Source of the DNA: an uncultured Pelagibacteraceae bacterium | GTDB taxonomy: Bacteria > Pseudomonadota > Alphaproteobacteria > Pelagibacterales > Pelagibacteraceae | DNA: 64,000 nucleotides | Direction of reading: 5' to 3' | NCBI GenBank assembly: GCA_902603305.1 | Contig: CACKUI010000002.1 | Coordinates: forward strand, 1 to 64,000 | Shown here: piece by piece, positions 39,742 to 62,382 of the stretch | How the letters are laid out: the number at the start of each line of letters is the position of its first letter | How positions within the stretch are numbered: the stretch's first letter is position 1 | Made by a program: the position numbers and the translations under genes | The notes under the pieces: generated by a model | Told to the model about the DNA's origin: nothing | Database searches by the model: none | The model's input: only the letters and a program-made list of their open reading frames with translations

Positions 39742-41829
39742 TTATTTTTTTCTTAGCCAGAATTGGTACATTCCTTTAAATATATCTGGATGTTTAATCT
39801 CAAATTCATTCCAATTCATCAAAGATGTAAAATTTTTATCATCTTTATAATAATTTGAGTAATCTTTTTTTAAAGAAGAATTTGCAAAACCTAAAAATTC
39901 TAAATTATATTTTTGGATTAATTTTGAAATTTTTGGCAAAGTAAAGCGATGCTCTTGAACATGAAAAACTAGATCTCTCAGACTTGATGTTGTATGAAAA
40001 TCATAATTGAAATTAAGTTTTTGTAATGGAATATTTTTTTTGTCATTTTTTATAATTTCTCTAAAATTTCTAATATCTTTTAAGTTATTTTTAAATTTTC
40101 TCTCTTTTAATAATTCCCTTGTTTCAACTATATGTTTCCTAGCATATTCACTGTACAAGCCTAGTTTAATAAAACCACCAGGTTCTAAAATATCTAGTAG
40201 TATATTTAATCCTTTTTCAGGGTTCTCTAGGTGATGCAGTACTCCCATACATTCAATAACATTAAACTTTCTTTTTAAACTTAATAATTTCAATAAATCA
40301 GTATGTAAAAATTCAATATTATTAATATTTAATTCCTGCATTCTTCTCTTAGCAAATGCTAGGCTTGATAAACTTAGGTCAATAGCAAGAATATTTGAAT
40401 TTTCGTAATCAATTCTTCTTGCCAGTTGATGCCCTGTTCCACATCCAGCTATTAGTATGTTCCACTTTATTTTTTCATTTTCTGGATTAATTTTATTTGG
40501 CTGTATATCATGATTTAATTCTTCAAAAAAATTTACTTTAGGGAGATAATTTGCATATCTCCAGCGTGGATATGGATTTTCCTCGTATTGATCTCTTACC
40601 TTATTTGATATGCTATCGGATATTTCTGTTGATTTTATGTGTTTTTTAAGATCTTTTTCTTTTAAAAAATCATGAATCTGGATTTTTATAAGGTCATTAA
40701 ATAATTGATTTTTTGAAAGGTGATTTTTAAACTTATTTATTAGTATTTCTGAATTGCTAAGTGGAATATAGCATGCAAGAATTGCAACATCTTGCTCGTT
40801 TATTGTATCAGATTTTTCAATTTTTAATTTCAAGTCTTCGACTAAATTTATTTCATCATCAGATTGGAAAAAAATATACTCATTAAGAAATGACTGTTCG
40901 GCAAATGATAAAATAAAATCAGAATAGTTTTCTGATAAATTTTGTTTATTATTTTTAATTGTAAATAATATTTCTTTTCTAATTGTGTATAAAAACTTTT
41001 CTAAAAACTGATCCCTGATTAGAGATTTTTGTAATATTAAATGAAAAAGTTTTTTTTTTAATACTAACTGAACTAACTGATTGCTTATCATATTGGCACT
41101 AGTTTCAATTAGTTTTTCGAATTTCTTTTTATCTTCATCAAAAATAATTAATTGTTTTGCGTTATTGAATAAATAATTATGATTTATTGAGTTTTTTTCG
41201 TATAGAAATTCAAAAATTTTTACTAAGTCTTTACTGTTATTTTCTGTAATATTATTAAGTCGTAACGTATTGAATAAGTCTACAGCACCTGAAATACCCA
41301 TATAATTTTCTGAATCTAACTCAAATATTTTTTTATAGCAGTTTAAAGCCTCTTTAAAATTTCTCATTTCTTTAAATATCTGTGCTTGAAGTCCATAACA
41401 ATTAAGATTAGACGGCTGAATTTGTGTTACCTTTTTTAAATAATTCAACGCTTGTTGAAATTTGCCTTGGTTTTTATAGAGAATACCTAGATTATAATTA
41501 GGATCTGCAAAATCACTTTTTAAAGATATGGCCTTATTGTAGTGTAAAATTGCTTGATTGAATTCTCCATTTTTAAAAAAAATATTTGCTAAGTTATTAT
41601 TAACGAATGGATTGTTTGGCTCTAAATTTACGACTTTTAAAAAATATTCTTTTGCTTTATTTTCTCTGCCAGTTTCTGCAAATAAGGTGCCTAAATAATT
41701 TATACAATTTATGTTTTTAGAATCTTTTTTCAATATTTCTTCATATAATTTCTCTGCTGCATAAAAATTTTTATTTTGATGATTTTTAATTGCTTTAGAT
41801 AACAAATTTTTAATTGCTGATTGACTCAT
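39742..41829 (-). CDS. TPR-repeat protein with C-terminal SAM-dependent methyltransferase
   Basis: A 695-residue two-part protein. The N-terminal 190 residues form at least five TPR units (for example NFYAAEKLYEEILKKDSKNINC and KFQQALNYLKKVTQIQPSNLNC). A 200-residue helical middle follows, then a class I methyltransferase domain (about 430-600) with motif I ILIAGCGTGHQLA, acidic motif NILAIDLSLSSLAFAKRRM and post-motif FNVIECMGVLHHLENPEKGL. The preceding NPYPRWRYANYLPK is a typical lead-in of this TPR-methyltransferase group. The substrate is unknown. It overlaps the upstream orphan regulator by four bases, so the two are translationally coupled. Confidence 0.87.
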   Translation of the reverse strand: MSQSAIKNLLSKAIKNHQNKNFYAAEKLYEEILKKDSKNINCINYLGTLFAETGRENKAKEYFLKVVNLEPNNPFVNNNLANIFFKNGEFNQAILHYNKAISLKSDFADPNYNLGILYKNQGKFQQALNYLKKVTQIQPSNLNCYGLQAQIFKEMRNFKEALNCYKKIFELDSENYMGISGAVDLFNTLRLNNITENNSKDLVKIFEFLYEKNSINHNYLFNNAKQLIIFDEDKKKFEKLIETSANMISNQLVQLVLKKKLFHLILQKSLIRDQFLEKFLYTIRKEILFTIKNNKQNLSENYSDFILSFAEQSFLNEYIFFQSDDEINLVEDLKLKIEKSDTINEQDVAILACYIPLSNSEILINKFKNHLSKNQLFNDLIKIQIHDFLKEKDLKKHIKSTEISDSISNKVRDQYEENPYPRWRYANYLPKVNFFEELNHDIQPNKINPENEKIKWNILIAGCGTGHQLARRIDYENSNILAIDLSLSSLAFAKRRMQELNINNIEFLHTDLLKLLSLKRKFNVIECMGVLHHLENPEKGLNILLDILEPGGFIKLGLYSEYARKHIVETRELLKERKFKNNLKDIRNFREIIKNDKKNIPLQKLNFNYDFHTTSSLRDLVFHVQEHRFTLPKISKLIQKYNLEFLGFANSSLKKDYSNYYKDDKNFTSLMNWNEFEIKHPDIFKGMYQFWLRKK

Positions 41830-42389
41830 TTTTTTGAGATCATATATCCATTTTTTGTACTCTTAATAAAATTGTTATCGTTGAAATATTTACTAATTTT
41901 TTTTCTCAATCTATAGATATGTGTTTCAACAGTATGAGTTTCGAGTTTTGAATTGTGACCCCATACTTCAATTTGTAACTGTGTTACGTTAACTGGTTTT
42001 TCAACATTGGAGATAAACATAATAATATTTGCCTCTCTCTCAGTTAAATCAAGGCTTTTTTCACTATTAAAAATTTTTCTTGAGTTTAAATTTAATTTAT
42101 AAACTCCCAAATCTATCTCCGATTGCTGGCTATACTTTTCTTTTAAAAATTTAATATTAATATTTTCAATTAATTTTACTATATCGATTGGAAAATTACT
42201 TATTACAATTTGATTTTCAAATTTTTTTATTTTTTTATTTGATATTACCAAATAATTATCCTTTGTTTTTAAATTAAGGTCAGTAATTTTATTTATATAA
42301 GTCAATTTAAAGTTTATATGATCGCTTATTTCACTTAGTATTTCATATAAAATTTTAAAATCATAAATTACTAAATTATCATTATTCAT
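41826..42389 (-). CDS. Orphan OmpR-type winged-helix regulator with degenerate receiver
   Basis: A 187-residue protein. The C-terminal half (about 93-185) is a Trans_reg_C winged helix: VYKLNLNSRKIF, LTEREANIIMFI, EVWGHNSKLETHTVETHIYRLRKKI and the closing wing TKNGYMISKK. The N-terminal half has the size and strand/helix rhythm of a receiver, but no phosphoacceptor aspartate where it is expected (near YLVISNKK). So it is an atypical response regulator not switched by phosphorylation. It is coupled to the TPR-methyltransferase gene and lies 15 bases from the divergent L,D-transpeptidase gene. Confidence 0.82.
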   Translation of the reverse strand: MNNDNLVIYDFKILYEILSEISDHINFKLTYINKITDLNLKTKDNYLVISNKKIKKFENQIVISNFPIDIVKLIENINIKFLKEKYSQQSEIDLGVYKLNLNSRKIFNSEKSLDLTEREANIIMFISNVEKPVNVTQLQIEVWGHNSKLETHTVETHIYRLRKKISKYFNDNNFIKSTKNGYMISKK

Positions 42390-45874: not shown

Positions 45875-48430
45875 GTGACTTCATTGGAAAGATATAATTT
45901 CAAAACTGTTGAGAAAAAATGGCAAGATGTCTGGCAGGATAACGCTGTTTTTAAATCTAAATTGGATCATTCTAAAGAAAAATTTTACTGTTTAGAAATG
46001 TTTCCATATCCATCGGGTAAAATACACATGGGTCACGTTAGAAACTATACAATTGGGGATGTTTTATCACGTTATAAAACATTAAAAGGTTTTAATGTAA
46101 TGCATCCAATGGGTTGGGATGCATTTGGTATGCCAGCAGAAAATGCTGCAAGAGAAAATAACTTAGATCCAAAAGATTGGACAAACAAAAATATATCAAC
46201 AATGAAAGAACAGTTAAAGCGTCTTGGTCTTTCTATTGATTGGGATAGAGAAATTTCTACTTGTTCAGAGGAATATTATAAACATCAACAATTATTTTTT
46301 TTAGAACTTTATGAAAAAGGGTTAGTTTATAGAAAAGAAAACTATGTAAATTGGGATCCAATCGATGAGACAGTTCTAGCAAATGAGCAAGTAATTGATG
46401 GCAAGGGATGGCGTTCAGGAGCTATCGTTGAACGTAAAAAATTAAATCAATGGTTTTTTAATATTTCAAAATTTTCACAAGAGTTACTTGATGGTTTAGA
46501 AAGTTTAGAGAAATGGCCAAACAAAGTGAAAGTTATGCAAAAAAATTGGATAGGTAAATCATTTGGTTGCGAAATTTCATTTAAAACTGAGGGAGATATA
46601 CCTATAAATGAAATAAAATGTTTTACTACTAGACCTGATACCTTATTCGGATTTTCATTTTTAGCTCTATCAGTAGACCATGAAATTTCTAAATTTTTTG
46701 CAGATAACAAAGAATTTGAGGAGTTTAAAAATGAATGTTCAAAAACTGGAACCACAGAGGAGGCGATTGCTATTGGGGAGAAAGTTGGCTTCAAAACTAA
46801 TTTAATGGCAATAAATCCTTTAAATCCAAAACAAAAAGTGCCAGTTTTCTTTGCAAATTTTGTTCTGATGGATTATGGATTTGGTGCAGTTTTTGGGTGC
46901 CCTGCACATGACCAAAGAGACTTTGATTTTGCAAGAAAATACGGTCTTGATATAAAAACTGTTGTAAAGCCAGATAATGAAAAAGACGATTTTGAGGTAA
47001 AAGATGAGGCATATTCTGGAGCTGGGTCTTTAATAAATTCAGAATTTCTTAATGGTCTCAAAGTTCCTGAGGAGTCAATTCTCAAAACAATTGATATATT
47101 AGAAGAAAAAAAAATAGGAAAAAAAAAAATTAATTTTAGGTTAAAAGATTGGGGTGTTTCAAGACAGAGATATTGGGGTTGCCCTATACCAATTGCATAC
47201 GACGAAAATGGAAATGTTACAACAATTCCCAAAAAAGACTTACCAGTAAAACTTCCAGAGAATGTAGATTTAAATGCAAAAGGTAACCCTTTAGACTTAG
47301 AAAATAAATGGAAAAGTGTCATAATTAGTGGAAAAAAATATACCAGAGAAACCGACACGCTCGATACTTTTGTTTGTTCATCTTGGTATTATCTTAGATT
47401 TTGCTCACCAGATAATTTAGAATATGGTTTTAATCAAGAGGAAATAGATTATTGGATGCCTGTTGACCAATATATAGGTGGGGTAGAGCACGCTATTCTT
47501 CACTTGTTGTATTCAAGATTTTTTATGAAAGCAATAGGATACAAAAATGAAAATTTCAAATTTAAGGAACCCTTTGAAGGTTTGTTTACCCAGGGTATGG
47601 TATGCCACGAAACTTATAAAGATAAAAATAATAATTGGTTGAGCCCAGATGAGATAGAATTGATTGATGGTCAGTTCTATAAAAAAGAAGATTCCAATCA
47701 TAAGGTTCAAGTTGGGTCTTCAGAATCAATGTCAAAATCAAAAAAAAATGTTATTGATCCTGAAAATATAATTAATAATTATGGTGCTGATGCAGTAAGA
47801 CTATTTATACTATCAGATAGTCCACCTGAAAAGGATGTACAATGGTCAGAGCAAGGAATGGTTGCTTCATATAAATTTTTACAAAAACTTTGGGCCTTAC
47901 ACAATAAAATTAAGAAAAAAATTCAAAGTGATAATATGGAGAGTGATCAAAATAATAATTTAGAAAAATTTACTAATCAAATGATAAATAAGATTACGAA
48001 TAACCTTGAGGATTTTAATTACAATGTTGTCATAGCTAATATTTATGAGACGTATAATTTTTTTAATAAAGAAATCGATAAAAATATCGATAGTAAAATT
48101 CTTAAAGAAAATTATATTAAATTACTTATATTGTTCACACCTGCAATTCCACATTTCACATCAGAGTGTTTAGAGGAATTGAAACTTTTGAGTGATATAA
48201 AATGGCCTTCTGTAGAAAGAAATCTCCTAGAAGAGGATAAAATAGATTATGTAATACAGATTAATGGAAAAAAAAGGGCTATTTTAAATGAAAATAGAGA
48301 TATTGATCAAGAAAGTCTTCTGAGTAAATTAAAAGCTAATAAATTATCAGAAAAATATTTAAAAGATAAATCTATAAATAAAATTGTATTTGTGAAAAAC
48401 AGGTTAATAAATATTTTAACAAATGAATAA
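45875..48430 (+). CDS. leuS: Leucyl-tRNA synthetase
   Basis: An 851-residue class I synthetase for tRNA-Leu. HIGH-equivalent [16 protein letters not shown] (about 47-62), the editing domain with TTRPDTLFG, and the KMSKS loop [13 protein letters not shown] are all present, as is the [16 protein letters not shown] signature. Length is close to E. coli (860). The start codon is GTG (45875), 11 bases after the lipoprotein stop, with a TTG three codons on as the alternative. The 3' end overlaps the LptE-like gene by 8 bases. Confidence 0.97.
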
Positions 48431-48898
48431 AATCGTACCAAAATTAACAATATTTTTTTTATTGATTGGATTAACTTCGTGTTCGTACAGCCCAATTTTT
48501 TCAGCAAAAAATTATAATTTTGAAATTGATAATATTATTTTAATTGGAGAGAAAGAAATAAATAATGTAATTGAAAATAAACTTAAATTAATTCGAAACG
48601 ATGGGAGTACAAACAAAAAAAATATAATATTGAAATAATATCAAAAAAAAACATAAATACTATCTCTAAAGATTCAAAAGGAGATCCATTAAAATTTGAA
48701 ATGATTGCTTACGTCGAATACAAATTGACACATAACGAAATTTCTCTATTAAAGAAAAAAGTCAAAAAAAATAGTATATACAATAATGACTCTGATAAAT
48801 TTGAACTTGAACAGAGCGAAAAGATAATCTTAAAAAACCTTTCAGAAAGTATAAGTGATACAATTATTTCATCAATCATAAACTTAGATGATAATTAA
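48423..48898 (+). pseudogene. lptE: LptE-like LPS-assembly lipoprotein, frame broken at an A8 tract
   Basis: The first part (from ATG 48423) gives a lipoprotein signal [20 protein letters not shown] (lipobox C20) and SYSPIFSAKNYNFEIDNI, then stops at 48638. The conserved continuation (YNIEIISKKNINTISKD, then a helix ending at TAA 48898) lies in the next frame. The frames join if the run of eight A residues at 48615-48622 is read as nine, giving a protein of about 158 residues, the LptE size. LptE with LptD exports LPS, and the leuS-lptE-holA order is standard. An essential gene broken only at a homopolymer suggests transcriptional slippage or a sequencing error rather than decay. It overlaps leuS by 8 bases and holA by 11. 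Confidence 0.8.
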
Positions 48899-49865
48899 AA
48901 GCTTTGAATTAGATAAACTACGATCTTCCAGCTCAAATGTTCACCTTATTCATGGAAATAATGAAGGTGTAAAAGAAGATATAATAAATAATATTTATTT
49001 AAAGGAATTTAATGGTGAATTATTAAAATATGATGAGTATGAAGTTTTAAATAATGGTGATGAATTTATATCTAGCCTATTAACTGACTCACTTTTTAGT
49101 ACAAATAAAATTATCATAATTTCAAGAGCTACTGATAAAATTGTTGATGTAATAAATGATATTTTAGAAAGAGGAAAATCTGAAACAAAAATTATAATTA
49201 AATGCCATAGCTTAGAGAAAAAATCTAAACTTAGAAAACTTTTTGAAAAAGAGGGTAATATTATCTGTACTCCTGTTTATGAGGATGACAATAGATCATT
49301 AAACTCGATTATACAGATTTTTTTAAAAGAGAACAAATTTAACTTATCCCAAGAAATTAAAAATATTCTCATCGAAAGATCAAAGGGCGATAGAATAAAT
49401 TTAAGAAATGAATTGATAAAATTAAAAAATTTATCACTAAGTAAAAAAATATTAAGTATTGATGATGTAGATAAACTTTCAAATCTTGCAGAAAATTATA
49501 GTGTTTTCGAATTATCAGATAACTATTTGGCTAAAAACTCGAAGAAAGTTTCTAATATTCTTAATGAAAATAATTATTCATCAGAAGATTGTATATTAAT
49601 AATAAGAACAATATTGAGTAAATCCAAAAGACTTTTAAAAATAAGAAATGAAATTGATAATAATTCAGATATTGATCAGGCTATATCCAGTATAAAACCC
49701 CCTATATTTTGGAAAGAAAAAGACATAGTTAAAAAACAGGCACAATCTTGGACAACTAATGAGGTAAAAGAAATTATATTTAAAATCAGTGATTTAGAGG
49801 CTCTAGTTAAGAAAAATACAGCAAATTCAATACTTTTTGTCTCTAATTTTGTAAGTAATTACTAA
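48888..49865 (+). CDS. holA: DNA polymerase III subunit delta
   Basis: A 325-residue clamp-loader subunit. The N-terminal AAA-like part has VHLIHGNNEGVKEDIINNIY and the poorly conserved Walker region typical of HolA. The middle has SKGDRINLRNELIKLKNLSL, and the C-terminal collar has SSEDCILIIRTILSKSKRLLKIR and PPIFWKEKDIVKKQAQSWT. The delta subunit opens the sliding clamp. It starts inside the last codons of the LptE-like gene (11-base overlap) and converges on parB with a 4-base overlap. Confidence 0.92.
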   Translation: MIIKSFELDKLRSSSSNVHLIHGNNEGVKEDIINNIYLKEFNGELLKYDEYEVLNNGDEFISSLLTDSLFSTNKIIIISRATDKIVDVINDILERGKSETKIIIKCHSLEKKSKLRKLFEKEGNIICTPVYEDDNRSLNSIIQIFLKENKFNLSQEIKNILIERSKGDRINLRNELIKLKNLSLSKKILSIDDVDKLSNLAENYSVFELSDNYLAKNSKKVSNILNENNYSSEDCILIIRTILSKSKRLLKIRNEIDNNSDIDQAISSIKPPIFWKEKDIVKKQAQSWTTNEVKEIIFKISDLEALVKKNTANSILFVSNFVSNY

Positions 49866-50714
49866 TAATTTTTCTTAATAATCTCTACCAATCTATCAAG
49901 CTGATCAGCTGCTTTATATTCTAAACTGATAGTTCCAGAGTTATTTTTTTTATTTTTAACAAAAACTCTCATCCCAATTTTATCGGTTAGCTCCTCCTCA
50001 AGACTTATAATATTTGGATCTTTTTGATTAGTAAAGCTATTAGAACTAGATTTTAACATTCTTACTAAAGTTTCGGCTTGCCTAACTGATAATTTTTTTG
50101 AAATAATTTTCTTTGCTAAAAGAATAGCATTATCTAAGCCCACTAAAATTTTTGCATGACCTTGTGATAATTTTTCTTCAATAATTAATTCAATTATTTC
50201 TTGTGGGAGTGAAAGGAGTCGTAAACAATTTGATATATGCGCTCTACTTTTGCCTATAAATTTTGATACTTTATCTTGATCATAACTAAATTCGTCAATT
50301 AACCTTTTATAACCTTCTGCTTCTTCAATAGGGTTTAAATCTTTTCTTTGCACGTTTTCTACAATAGCAAATTCCAAAGATTTAAGGTTATCAACATTAA
50401 TTATCACCACTGGAACTTCATGAAGTCCTGCATATTGCGCAGCTTGCCATCTTCTTTCTCCTGCTATTATTTCAAATTTATCCTCTTCATCAGCAGATGG
50501 TCTAACAATTATAGGTTGGATTATTCCAAGCTCTCTTATTGAGTTAGTTAGTTCCTCTAAACTTGTTTCATCAAATTTTTTTCTAGGCTGATACTTATTT
50601 CTGACTAATGAACTTATTGAGACATTCTTTTTATCATCAATTTTTTCACTATCACCTATCAGGGAAGACAATCCTCTTCCAAGTCCTTTTTTTTGATTTA
50701 AACGGATTCATCAT
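49862..50714 (-). CDS. parB: Chromosome-partitioning protein ParB, frame change near the start
   Basis: From 50671 down, 269 residues give the ParB core: SLVRNKYQPRKKFDETSLEEL, GIIQPIIVRPSADEED, the CTP-binding motif GERRWQAAQYAG, and NPIEEAEGYKRLIDEF, with the helix-turn-helix SKFIGKSRAHISNCLRLLSLP and a C-terminal dimer domain. The conserved front KKGLGRGLSS continues upstream but reaches a stop (50711-50713) without a good start codon. A convincing start is ATG 50714, with GGAGAG 6 bases before it and overlapping the parA stop, but it is in another frame. Reading the A8 run at 50687-50694 as seven A residues joins them as MMNPFKSKKGLGRGL. The shortest uninterrupted form would use TTG 50671. 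Confidence 0.88.
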
Positions 50715-51511
50715 GCTGCGCTCTCCACTGGTTTGTCTTGATTTAAAAATTCCTCTGTAAAATTAAAATATGCTTTGCTACCTGGGCAAGTCTTGTCATA
50801 AATAAGTACCGGCACACCATGAGAGGGTGCTTCTGACAATCTGACATTTCTCGGTACAGCTGTGTTGTAAACTTTATTCTTAAAGTAGTTTCTTGCCTCA
50901 GCCTCTACCTCACCAGATAATTTATTTCTTTTATCATACATGGTTAGCAGTATACCTCTAATGTCTAGAGAAGGGTTTAGGTTTGATTTTATCCTCTCGA
51001 TTGTTTTAATGAGCTGCGTTAAACCCTCTAAAGCAAAGAATTCTGTCTGAAGTGGTACTACAAGAGCATCTGATGCTACCAAAGCCATAACTGTGAGAAG
51101 GCTTAAGGATGGAGGGCAGTCAATTATAATATAATCATAGGATTGCCCAGAATTGTTTAAAATTAGGGTTAATTCATCTTTCAATTTAAAGGCTCTCCTA
51201 CTATCACCTGCTGTTTCAACCTCTAGTCCAGACAAATCAACATTTGATGATATCAAATCCAAATTTTTAAAGCTTGTAGGTAAGACTACCTCTGAAATTT
51301 TTTTATTTCCATTCAATACATTATAAATATTTTGATCAGATCTTGTTGTGTTAGATAATCCAAGTCCTGTTGTAGCATTACCTTGAGGATCAAGATCGAT
51401 AACAAGAATTTTTTTTCCTTTCATCGTTAAACCAGCAGCAAGATTGATGACAGTAGTAGTCTTACCTACACCACCTTTCTGGTTTATAACTGAAATAATT
51501 TTTCTACTCAT
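50711..51511 (-). CDS. parA: Chromosome-partitioning ATPase ParA
   Basis: A 266-residue deviant-Walker ATPase. Walker A KGGVGKTTT (12-20), VIDLDPQGNATTGLG, Walker B-like YIIIDCPPSLSLLTV and the closing IYDKTCPGSKAYFNFTEEF are typical of the Soj/ParA family. ParA dimers on the nucleoid pull ParB-parS complexes apart. It overlaps rsmG by 8 bases and is followed at once by parB. Two parS sites lie 0.6-0.9 kb upstream, in rsmG and mnmG. Confidence 0.97.
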   Translation of the reverse strand: MSRKIISVINQKGGVGKTTTVINLAAGLTMKGKKILVIDLDPQGNATTGLGLSNTTRSDQNIYNVLNGNKKISEVVLPTSFKNLDLISSNVDLSGLEVETAGDSRRAFKLKDELTLILNNSGQSYDYIIIDCPPSLSLLTVMALVASDALVVPLQTEFFALEGLTQLIKTIERIKSNLNPSLDIRGILLTMYDKRNKLSGEVEAEARNYFKNKVYNTAVPRNVRLSEAPSHGVPVLIYDKTCPGSKAYFNFTEEFLNQDKPVESAA

Positions 51512-52148
51512 ATTTTTTTTTCAAATTTGAAATTTTTACTACTGATGACTCATCACTTGTTAGACTCTTCATGACCTCTAAGTCGAATTTCCATTTTATT
51601 GAAACATCTTTCAAAATTTTTTTTCCACTCTTGCCTAGATACATGACTATGTATTTAAAATTTTTAAAATTCTTCGTTGCAATATCAAAAATCACTGGCA
51701 AAGGTTTAAATGCTCGACAAATTATTACATCCGTAACTAAGTTTTTCTCCTCAAAAATATTTTTTTGATAAATTTTAGCTTCTAATTTGAATTTTTTTGC
51801 CATCTCTTTAAGGAAATTGCTTTTATGATAACTCTTTTCATAAAAAATTAGCTTAAAACCTTGCTTTTTAGGTTTCATCAAAATACCCAAAACTATACTA
51901 GGAAGCCCTGCCCCCGATCCAAGATCAGTGCAAACCTTAATGTCATTTTTATCAATAAAATCAACGGTTTGTGCACTATCGTAAATATGCCTTGATTTTA
52001 TTGATTTTTCTGTACTCGAACTAATCAAATTAATTTTCCTGTTTGTGTTTAAAATTGACTGCGAATATTCCTCAAGCTCCATTAATGTTTCACGTGAAAC
52101 ATTTGGGAGATAAATTTTATCTTTTTTTATAATTTTCGAATCAATCAA
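51504..52148 (-). CDS. rsmG: 16S rRNA (guanine-527-N7)-methyltransferase
   Basis: A 214-residue SAM-dependent methyltransferase (GidB). The motif I region is [18 protein letters not shown], preceded by the guiding [30 protein letters not shown] follows near 140. The N-terminal [18 protein letters not shown] is typical, and its NVSRET codons contain a full parS site. The start overlaps mnmG by four bases (ATGA). Confidence 0.95.
52086..52101. promoter_or_regulatory. parS site (perfect)
   Basis: TGTTTCACGTGAAACA is the exact 16-bp palindromic parS consensus bound by ParB. It lies inside the 5' part of rsmG, where it encodes NVSRET, about 1.4 kb upstream of parB and about 9 kb from the candidate origin. 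parS sites mark the origin-proximal domain. Confidence 0.95.
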
Positions 52149-59279: not shown

Positions 59280-60272
59280 TTATAAATTCTTTGAAATAAG
59301 ATGTTTGAATAAAGAAATATGATCTTCATTATCATTTAAGCAAGGTATCATTTCAAAGTTTTCACCGCCTGATTTGATAAAACTTTCTTTCCCTTGGATG
59401 GATATTTCTTCTAAAGTCTCTACACAATCAGATGAAAAACCAGGACATATAACTAAAATATTTTTTTTTCCCTCTTTTGGCAAGGCTTCAAAAGTTTTAT
59501 CTGTATAAGGTTGTAGCCATTCTTGAGGGCCAAATCTTGATTGAAATGTTGTCAAAATTTTAATATCTGAATATTTTTCAGAAATAAGTCTTGTGGTTTT
59601 ATGACAATAGCAATGATAAGGATCGCCCTTGTCAAAATATTTTTTTGGTATTCCATGATACGAAGCTACTATTAAGTCTGGTTTCCAATTAATTTCGTTA
59701 ATTTTTTTTACAATACTATTTTTAATAGCATCTATATAAAGAGGTTCAGACTCATAATGAGGAATTATTTTTAAATTTGGTTGCCACCTCATTTTCATCA
59801 GGGTTCTATAAACCTCATCACATACAGTTGCAGTCGTTGCTGCAGCATATTGAGGATAAAGAGGTAGCACAATTAAATTTTCACAACCCTTTTCATGAAG
59901 ATCATTTATTTTGTTTTTAATACTTGGATTGCCATATCTCATAGCAAAATCAACAATCAAGTTTTCATTGCCAATTTTCTCAGATAATTTATGGGCTTGG
60001 CTTTCTGTAAAAAACCTAAGTGGTGACATGTTCTTGTCTTTCATCCATATTTCTTTGTAGGCTTTAGCTGTTTTTGATGGTCTGAAAGTAAGTATAAATA
60101 AGTTAAGAATTACTTGCCAAATAAAAGGATTTACTTCGATAACTCTTCTATCTGATAAAAATTCCTTTAAATATTTCCTTATATCCAGCCAACTAGTGGA
60201 ATCGGGTGTGCCAAGATTTACAATTAAAACCCCTGTTTTTCCATAGTTAACTTTTGGGTGGTCTATTGTCAT
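59280..60272 (-). CDS. hemH: Ferrochelatase
   Basis: A 330-residue enzyme inserting Fe2+ into protoporphyrin IX. GVLIVNLGTPDS starts the protein, and the catalytic histidine is in VASYHGIPKKYFDKGD. The partner acidic residue region is QSRFGPQEWLQPYTDKT and the closing part is CPGFSSDCVETLEEI. FAMRYGNPSI and PLYPQYAAATTATV are conserved. It overlaps hemE by four bases (ATGA). Confidence 0.97.
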   Translation of the reverse strand: MTIDHPKVNYGKTGVLIVNLGTPDSTSWLDIRKYLKEFLSDRRVIEVNPFIWQVILNLFILTFRPSKTAKAYKEIWMKDKNMSPLRFFTESQAHKLSEKIGNENLIVDFAMRYGNPSIKNKINDLHEKGCENLIVLPLYPQYAAATTATVCDEVYRTLMKMRWQPNLKIIPHYESEPLYIDAIKNSIVKKINEINWKPDLIVASYHGIPKKYFDKGDPYHCYCHKTTRLISEKYSDIKILTTFQSRFGPQEWLQPYTDKTFEALPKEGKKNILVICPGFSSDCVETLEEISIQGKESFIKSGGENFEMIPCLNDNEDHISLFKHLISKNL

Positions 60273-61270
60273 TTAAAGTCTCTTACAATTTTAATCAAGT
60301 CTTCAACCATTTCAATTTTAGTTTCTGGTAGAATTCCATGTCCTAAATTAAATATGTATGGATGATCCTTAAAAATATGAAGATATTTTTCCACTTCTTT
60401 TTTAAGAATTTCTTTATCAGTTAATAATATTTTAGGGTCGAGTCCCCCCTGAATGGGAATTTTTATTTCTTTTACTATTTTTTCTGGATCAACATCATAG
60501 TCTATATTTACTGCATCTGGTTTAACTATTTCACAGAAATTTTTGTAATTTTTAATACCTCTTGGAAAACAAATTACAGGTATGCCTAATTGTTTAACAT
60601 ATTCTACAATATTTAATGTGGGTATATAAATATATTCAGGAATTTTATCATCTAATAATCCTGCCCAACTGTCAAAAATTTGAATTACTTTAGCCCCAGC
60701 CTCAACTTGATTTTTTATATGAACTTTTAGGAATTTTTCAATGATTTGTAATAGTCTATTTATTAAAAAATCATCTTTAAAGAATTCACTTGTAAGACCT
60801 TTTTTTGGTGATGATCTATTAATCATATATACAAGAATAGTCCATGGAGCTCCAACAAAACCTATCATGTCTTTATTACCCATTAAAGGGTCCTGGGAAG
60901 TTTTGGAAATTGCTTTGTAAACTTTATAAACTTTTTCTGTAAAGTTAATTTCGTCAACATTTTTAATATTATCTAATTCTATTTCTCCAAGTTTTGGTCC
61001 AAAATTTTTTTCGAATTCTACCTTTTGACCAAGACCATATGGTAACATCAAAATGTCAGAAAATATTACTGCACCATCAAACCCAAATCTCTTTATAGGT
61101 TGAAGAGTTATTTCAGATGCTAAATCGCTATTTAAACAAAGTTTTATAAAATCTGTATTTTTTCTTCTTATCTCTCGAAATTCGGGTAAATACCTTCCTG
61201 CTTGTCTCATTAACCATATAGGATTAGTTTTAGTATCTTTATTTTTTATACAGTTAGTTAAGGGACTCAT
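60269..61270 (-). CDS. hemE: Uroporphyrinogen decarboxylase
   Basis: A 333-residue TIM-barrel enzyme removing the four acetate carboxyls of uroporphyrinogen III. The signatures are WLMRQAGRYLPEFREIR (19-35), with the arginines that bind substrate, and IFSDILMLPYGLGQ, with the catalytic aspartate. It also has GFVGAPWTILVYM and IFNLGHGILPET. It is the first gene on the left of the intergenic candidate origin. In Caulobacter and Rickettsia the origin lies next to hemE as well. Confidence 0.97.
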   Translation of the reverse strand: MSPLTNCIKNKDTKTNPIWLMRQAGRYLPEFREIRRKNTDFIKLCLNSDLASEITLQPIKRFGFDGAVIFSDILMLPYGLGQKVEFEKNFGPKLGEIELDNIKNVDEINFTEKVYKVYKAISKTSQDPLMGNKDMIGFVGAPWTILVYMINRSSPKKGLTSEFFKDDFLINRLLQIIEKFLKVHIKNQVEAGAKVIQIFDSWAGLLDDKIPEYIYIPTLNIVEYVKQLGIPVICFPRGIKNYKNFCEIVKPDAVNIDYDVDPEKIVKEIKIPIQGGLDPKILLTDKEILKKEVEKYLHIFKDHPYIFNLGHGILPETKIEMVEDLIKIVRDFK

Positions 61271-61554
61271 ATAAATAGATATATATTATTTACTTTATTA
61301 GTATTATGTATTGTGAATAACGTAAATTAGTCAATTATCACAGTTTGTTAACTCTTTATTAATAATTAAGATCTTAAATTAGCTCTATTTTATAAGGATT
61401 AATCAAGATTTCTCATATTTTATGTATATTATGTATAACTTTGTTAACATTTTATAATTTAGTTAATTTGATGGAAAAAAAACTAACTATTATTATTCAA
61501 AGGAGTAAATCTGAATTTTTCTTATTTTACTTATAGACTATAAACGCTTTATAC
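61271..61554. other. Candidate chromosomal replication origin (hemE-ppsR intergenic)
   Basis: The largest gap in the window (284 bases), strongly AT-rich. It lies between hemE and ppsR with transcription leaving in both directions, and in Caulobacter and Rickettsia the origin is next to hemE. It contains one DnaA box (61312-61320), the 9-mer TTTGTTAAC twice (61344-61352, 61440-61448), TATGTAT three times (61305, 61421, 61430; the last two 9 bases apart), a 12-bp palindrome TTAAGATCTTAA (61366-61377), and TTAA-N7-TTAA (61348-61362), the CtrA-site form. A 21-codon ATG frame (61471-61536) and an orphan AAAGGAG (61499-61505) also lie here. No tRNA or other RNA gene is visible. Origin function is inferred. 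Confidence 0.7.
61312..61320 (-). promoter_or_regulatory. DnaA box (TTATTCACA)
   Basis: The minus strand reads TTATTCACA, matching the DnaA consensus TTATNCACA. It is the only full match in the hemE-ppsR gap; TTATCACAG at 61335-61343 is a weak relative. A lone strong box is fewer than in a classical oriC. Confidence 0.6.
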
Positions 61555-62382
61555 ATGAGAAATTTATATCAAATATACTTAATATCAGACTCTACAGGCG
61601 AAACACTTGATAGAATTTTTTTAGCTTTGAAAGCACAATTTCCTAATTTCGAATACGAGACAAATCATTTTTCCTTTACTCGTACTGAAAGTCAAACTCT
61701 TAGTATACTAAAACAGGCAAAAGAAGATAAAAACTCAATTATTTTATATACTATTGTTAATAGTAAATTAGCAAAATATCTTACAGAAAAAGCCTACGAA
61801 AGAAAAATACCTTGTTTTGGAGTTCTTGGGGATTTAATTTTAAATTTTTCAAAAGTCTTAAATCAAAAGGCTTCTCACCAACCAAGTGGGCAACATATTC
61901 TAAATGAAGAGTACTATGACAGAATTGAAGCTATTCAATTCACCATGAACCATGATGATGGTAATCAAACTGATGATATAGAGAAATCAGATATTATTTT
62001 ATTAGGTGTAAGTAGAACAAGCAAAACACCAACTTCCATCTATCTAGCTAATAGAGGGTACAAAACTTCAAATATTCCGTTAGTAAATAAAAATTCTATA
62101 CCATACAAAGTTACAGAAAAAAATTTCAGACCATGCGTTGTTGGTTTAATTACAGAAGCAGAAAGATTATATGATTTAAGAAAAAATAGATTGAATTCAT
62201 TGAAAGAAGATCAAAATAGTGAATATGTTAATATTGATAAGATTAAAGATGAACTTGATAATGCTAGAAAATTATTCAAAGAGAACAATTGGCCAACTAT
62301 AGATGTAACAAGAAAATCAGTTGAGGAAACAGCAGCGTCAGTAATAAAAATTTTTGAGATAAAGAACAAAAAAAATGCCTAA
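61555..62382 (+). CDS. ppsR: Pyruvate,phosphate dikinase / PEP synthase regulatory protein
   Basis: A 275-residue bifunctional kinase/pyrophosphorylase (DUF299 family) that turns PPDK or PEP synthase off with ADP and on again with phosphate. The signatures are LYQIYLISDSTGETLDR, ASHQPSGQHILNEEYYDRIEAIQFTMNHDDG and the nucleotide loop ILLGVSRTSKTPTSIYLA. It is first on the right of the candidate origin, the position of the RP001-type gene in Caulobacter and Rickettsia. The ATG is confirmed by an in-frame stop six codons upstream. No ribosome-binding site precedes it. Confidence 0.94.
   Translation: MRNLYQIYLISDSTGETLDRIFLALKAQFPNFEYETNHFSFTRTESQTLSILKQAKEDKNSIILYTIVNSKLAKYLTEKAYERKIPCFGVLGDLILNFSKVLNQKASHQPSGQHILNEEYYDRIEAIQFTMNHDDGNQTDDIEKSDIILLGVSRTSKTPTSIYLANRGYKTSNIPLVNKNSIPYKVTEKNFRPCVVGLITEAERLYDLRKNRLNSLKEDQNSEYVNIDKIKDELDNARKLFKENNWPTIDVTRKSVEETAASVIKIFEIKNKKNA

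Follow-up and report, generated by a model that had tools for sequence, protein, structure and literature searches.

The window, that is the whole 64,000-nucleotide stretch of DNA analysed here, carries hemE and ppsR (COG1806) as divergent genes on both sides of a short gap (Table 1). The two flanking genes were confirmed by profile, in agreement with the sequence-only reading, which had placed a chromosomal origin between them. ParB was likewise profile-confirmed and the remaining gene names were read from translations. The gene order around the gap, parB-parA-rsmG-mnmG-mnmE ... rho ... hemH-hemE on one side and ppsR-maf-aroE on the other, looks like that of an alphaproteobacterial origin region. 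As had been claimed, the gap is the longest and the most AT-rich among the true gaps of the window, whose mean AT content is 70.7%; 0.7% of 284-bp segments reach the AT content of the gap and some coding stretches exceed it. ORF-less stretches longer than the gap correspond to genes with non-ATG starts or to a split lptE-like gene at 48431-48887. In the leuS-holA interval (48420-48898), this lipoprotein-like gene is distributed over two overlapping frames (48420-48638 and 48587-48898), which appears to reflect a frameshift or a sequencing error, and the locus mimics a 457-bp gap when ATG ORFs only are drawn. No Rfam match was found in the region of the gap. The contig of the window belongs to a 51%-complete assembly.

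Table 1. Coordinates of the features in and around the hemE-ppsR gap (positions in the window; box counts are species with at most one mismatch at the alignment column).
Feature	Position	Strand	Remarks
parB and parA	49862..51511	-	ParB: parB_part domain TIGR00180 above cut-off; ParA-family matches below cut-off
parS, perfect TGTTTCACGTGAAACA	52086..52101	+	9.2 kb from gap
hemE, flanking gene	60269..61270	-	start codon at 61270; TIGR01464 above cut-off
Whole hemE-ppsR gap, very probable oriC	61271..61554	.	284 bp, 81.7% AT
AT-rich tract adjoining hemE, probable opening site	61271..61295	.	in 96.8%-conserved block; beyond the trios as in BUS layout
Four trinucleotides TAT-TAG-TAT-TAT, DnaA-trio-like (3'-NAT-5')	61296..61307	+	
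4-nt spacer GTAT, triplets to box 1	61308..61311	+	
DnaA box 1, TTATTCACA, exact consensus	61312..61320	-	24/30, exact in 15
DnaA-box position 2, degenerate in window	61334..61342	+	column 69: 11/30
DnaA-box position 3, degenerate in window, holds first TTTGTTAAC copy	61345..61353	+	column 80: 7/30
DnaA-box position 4, TTATTAATA in window	61356..61364	+	column 91: 14/30
DnaA-box position 5, TTATACATA, 1 mismatch, third TATGTAT	61430..61438	-	column 175: 11/30
DnaA-box position 6, TTGTTAACA, holds second TTTGTTAAC copy	61441..61449	+	column 187: 14/30, 4 exact
DnaA-box position 7, lost or degenerate in window	61461..61469	-	column 207: 14/30, 2 exact
Second conserved block beside ppsR	61505..61554	+	94.2% conserved in close relatives
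DnaA-box position 8 beside ppsR, degenerate in window	61538..61546	+	column 286: 16/30, 2 exact
ppsR (COG1806), flanking gene	61555..62382	+	NF003742 above cut-off

The closest named relatives of the window are single-cell genomes and MAGs of uncultured Pelagibacteraceae, which places it in SAR11, and hemE was present in 51 of the 61 relatives searched. Thirty same-genus loci were read, counting that of the window, and all have hemE and ppsR pointing away from each other across a gap of 261-285 bp. Among the named loci, the gap measures 281-288 bp in 78 of 80, the other two beginning at or inside ppsR at a contig end; at the genus level, every locus with both genes (108/108) has a gap of 261-288 bp. 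In the 20 loci of a sister family, for which the proteins were read in four loci and the neighbours in the rest were judged on ORF size, hemE is followed by a gap of 271-281 bp and then by maf-aroE-coaE, and ppsR was not found next to hemE. In a class-wide sample of other families, 17 of 20 genomes showed hemE divergent beside ppsR, as far as the match used extended, and 16 of these 17 gaps contain a DnaA box with at most one mismatch.

Alignment of the hemE-ppsR gaps of relatives had been proposed as a check of the origin; the gaps align and are conserved. In a set of 58 sequences (the window and 57 close relatives), the 71-bp block adjoining hemE (61271-61341) is 96.8% conserved, compared with 64.9% at the four-fold sites of ppsR, and the middle of the gap is 79.5% conserved. 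The second conserved block, on the ppsR side, includes DnaA-box position 8 and could double as the promoter or leader of ppsR; the conserved blocks could partly be in the service of the hemE and ppsR promoters. The species compared are related, so that the counts given here are those of non-independent events and the shuffles are uncorrected for shared ancestry, a concern that is partly offset by how strongly the gap has diverged in its middle.

In the 30 gaps, 130 DnaA boxes with at most one mismatch were counted versus 25.4 (sd 4.4) in dinucleotide shuffles, and 24 exact boxes versus 1.0. The sister-family gaps (n = 20) contain 56 boxes versus 10.5 in mononucleotide shuffles. Boxes with at most one mismatch occupy eight alignment columns, in 7 to 24 of the 30 species and with the strand fixed for each column, and columns 69, 80 and 91 (positions 2 to 4) are spaced by 11 bp. 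Several boxes are present in the gap at the genus level, and the window species has one exact box (position 1), two boxes with one mismatch (position 5 and an additional site outside the conserved columns) and weaker sites at the other positions, with two to four mismatches. The CACA end of position 2 is invariant among close relatives. The sequence-only reading had reported only one strong DnaA box, which would make the origin unusually minimal. The single exact box and the shortness of the gap are borne out, but this is not a one-box origin: the genus conserves eight box positions, although most are degenerate in the window species.

The other motifs reported at the locus were also examined. 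The duplicated TTTGTTAAC (61344 and 61440) and the palindrome TTAAGATCTTAA (61366) are present, and TATGTAT is found three times (61305, 61421 and 61430), but only the last two copies show the 9-bp spacing ascribed to all three. When the gap was shuffled by mononucleotides, 85% of the shuffles contained a duplicated 9-mer, 84% a 7-mer in three copies, 38% a palindrome of 12 bp and 18% TTAA-N7-TTAA. Taken individually, these elements, the CtrA-like site included, are at chance level for the base composition of the gap. The repeats gain meaning only via the alignment, in which conserved DnaA-box columns are overlapped by both TTTGTTAAC copies and by the last TATGTAT. The palindrome, in contrast, shows no conservation there.

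The TTAA-N7-TTAA motif, previously proposed as a CtrA-type site, does lie at 61348, but it falls on two phased DnaA boxes and no ctrA was found in the complete relative G012. If the origin were controlled by CtrA as in Caulobacter, this motif would be the repressor site, and the 30 gaps do contain more such motifs (21) than mononucleotide shuffles (7.3). However, TTAA-N7-TTAA arises of necessity wherever two TTATTAAC-type boxes lie 11 bp apart, which accounts for the CtrA-like site, and the motif stands at the columns of boxes 3 and 4 in only 7 of the 30 species. Furthermore, no G012 regulator reaches the cut-off of 350 bits of the NCBIfam CtrA profile (133, 120, 29 bits or unlisted), a model built on Rhodobacterales. 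Control of this origin by CtrA is, in our opinion, extremely improbable. G012 encodes three full-length regulators of OmpR type, plus a short protein that lacks the receiver. In the window, positions 41829-42389 code for a 187-aa protein with an OmpR-type DNA-binding domain and no recognisable receiver domain, and its G012 counterpart is a similar 184-aa protein at ~1244 kb.

The skew analysis covered sampled stretches from four complete genomes; three of these have hemE-ppsR, and the fourth was centred on ppsR alone. When the four genomes were pooled, the GC skew was -0.055 on the left and +0.042 on the right of the gap (p 9e-6), and the coding strand also switched sign at the gap (p 4e-5). 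The GC skew check suggested by the sequence-only reading thus gave the sign change at the locus, but with a broad minimum: in G012 it extends over ~80 kb and is deeper at 1230 and 1290 kb than at the gap (1262 kb). Judged by gene strand, the best origin is 18-31 kb away from the gap in three genomes and 185 kb away in G205. For Pelagibacter ubique, a survey reports the absence of a dif/Xer system (PMC2731167).

All 14 relatives tested have DnaA, and dnaA was not found in the window's own, half-complete genome. The G012 protein aligns with that of Bacillus over the AAA+ and DNA-binding domains, RDHTT motif included, and its domains are normal. The dnaA locus was rejected as origin due to its lack of boxes, two one-mismatch boxes being detected in 3.5 kb of G012. 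A DnaA-box cluster at 1324394-1324627 of the same genome was also discarded because of its location at the 3' end of a regulator gene. The claim that parABS is nearby was confirmed by the parB and parA genes of the window and by a perfect parS site, which had not been listed before. In four relatives, parS lies 7-10 kb from hemE. In Caulobacter, too, parABS lies in the neighbourhood of the origin.

These data bear on the possibility that the gap is only the divergent promoter region of hemE and ppsR, perhaps regulated by DnaA, with the origin at another point of the broad skew valley, such as the vicinity of dnaA (~63 kb away in G012). The breadth of the G012 valley and the position of the most conserved blocks, which adjoin both start codons, are compatible with such an arrangement. 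However, promoter-like sites are about as frequent as chance predicts (6 against 4.1 expected), and the gap length and the DnaA-box columns persist where ppsR is gone. Moreover, parS is near the gap in every relative examined for parS, the G012 dnaA region is poor in boxes and the sole denser cluster in the sampled G012 sequence is the one at the regulator gene 3' end. A promoter function alone is very unlikely. The position of the gap, its conservation, the motif enrichment and the strand asymmetry were computed directly, and they argue strongly for the hemE-ppsR gap as the replication origin (oriC) of the SAR11 (Pelagibacterales) chromosome. The earlier proposal of a chromosomal origin is thus supported by a context identical to that of Caulobacter and Rickettsia, by conserved aligned gaps and by the pooled skew sign change.

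From hemE, the gap presents successively the AT-rich tract, four TAN triplets, the 4-nt spacer and box 1. Across 30 species of wider divergence, 3.0 of the 4 triplets are TAN in this phase, compared with 0.1-0.5 in the other phases and at most 1.20 in shuffles; T is first in 89-99% and A second in 66-86%. The published search rule for the basal unwinding system (BUS) asks for a DnaA box followed, after no more than 16 bp of spacer, by three or more NAN triplets (PMC8287927). Applied here with up to two mismatches allowed in the box, and with the triplets in the right orientation inside 16 bp of it, the rule retrieved the arrangement TAT-TAG-TAT-TAT, 4 nt, then TTATTCACA on the opposite strand. 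As in the BUS of Bacillus subtilis oriC (PMC8287927), a box, a short spacer and in-phase central-A trinucleotides occur in the same strand and orientation beside AT-rich DNA. In contrast, the SAR11 triplets are TA(T/G) whereas those of Bacillus are mainly TAG, the genus is without a clear, well-matching second tandem box, the SAR11 gap is far from dnaA, and SAR11 unwinding is a prediction.

From this organization we infer DnaA binding, an opening on the hemE side, an order of events and the start of replication. DnaA would bind the strong box 1 and cooperatively occupy both the weak positions 2-4, which are phased, and the central cluster of positions 5-7. A DnaA filament starting at box 1 would extend over the spacer onto the four TAN triplets, as in the Bacillus subtilis BUS, and would open the AT-rich tract beside hemE, leading to helicase loading. 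ParB bound at parS, ~9 kb off, would then aid the segregation of the duplicated origin region.

The gap could also be the origin and be opened without triplets, DnaA and a bending protein of IHF/HU type melting the AT-rich DNA by loop-back as in E. coli, and the TAN triplets belonging to the hemE promoter. Three HU/IHF-type genes are found in each of the four relatives tested, and no trio run was found beside a reverse box in most of the sampled class gaps. In the sister family, TAGTAGTAGTAG stands at the triplet site of two loci, and most loci of genus g2 have weaker triplets, e.g. TTG-TAG-TTG-TTT. On the other hand, the triplet phase is sharp over 30 species, with the orientation and the spacer to the box as published, and the IHF consensus used (WATCARN4TTR) is absent from the gap of the window and occurs in only 3 of the 30 gaps. 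An opening of this type is possible but rather doubtful. A more complete picture is advanced tentatively and with slightly less than even confidence: a streamlined, CtrA-free SAR11 origin of ~280 bp, in which one strong DnaA box would direct DnaA to a TAN-type DnaA-trio opener beside hemE, helped by low-affinity TTATTAACA-type boxes at 11-bp phase to which DnaA would be adapted.

The hemE-COG1806 context is that of the Caulobacter and Rickettsia origins, the oriC of Caulobacter crescentus measuring 404 bp and the Rickettsia origins 383-396 bp; the origins predicted in Wolbachia, Ehrlichia and Anaplasma are located between hemE and COG1253 (385-620 bp) (PMC1914354). The SAR11 gap shares with Caulobacter crescentus and Rickettsia both flanking genes, an AT content richer than that of the genome and DnaA boxes. 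Unlike them, it is shorter in the genus (261-288 bp), shows no recognisable CtrA or conserved IHF sites, and its boxes are mostly TTATTAACA-like and degenerate. CtrA sites together with a CtrA protein are a Caulobacter trait that is already variable in the intracellular species. As in Wolbachia, Ehrlichia and Anaplasma, the gap of the SAR11 sister family stays with hemE after the other neighbour has changed, but the new neighbour is maf instead of COG1253 and the gaps of those bacteria are longer. Since it shares the origin location of its cousins, a conserved DNA-opening element and eight initiator-binding positions, the gap would be a short representative of a known kind of origin; its assignment to the alphaproteobacterial hemE type, with a BUS-like core, appears well supported.

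SAR11 is among the most abundant bacterial groups of the ocean, where estimates of its replication rate rely on read coverage between origin and terminus. A sequence-defined oriC would offer a fixed anchor for such coverage-based estimates, including in draft and single-cell genomes. No published analysis of a SAR11 origin was found in the literature searched, subscription journals being mostly outside it. The interest of the locus resides in how little a streamlined origin retains: according to the multi-species footprint, it keeps a single strong box, an opener resembling DnaA-trios and a set of weak boxes in phase. Finally, in one same-family genus (G132, two loci), hemE was detected only as a distant homologue (30% identity) far from ppsR, and rho adjoins ppsR across a gap that contains three one-mismatch DnaA boxes and lies near a GC skew change.
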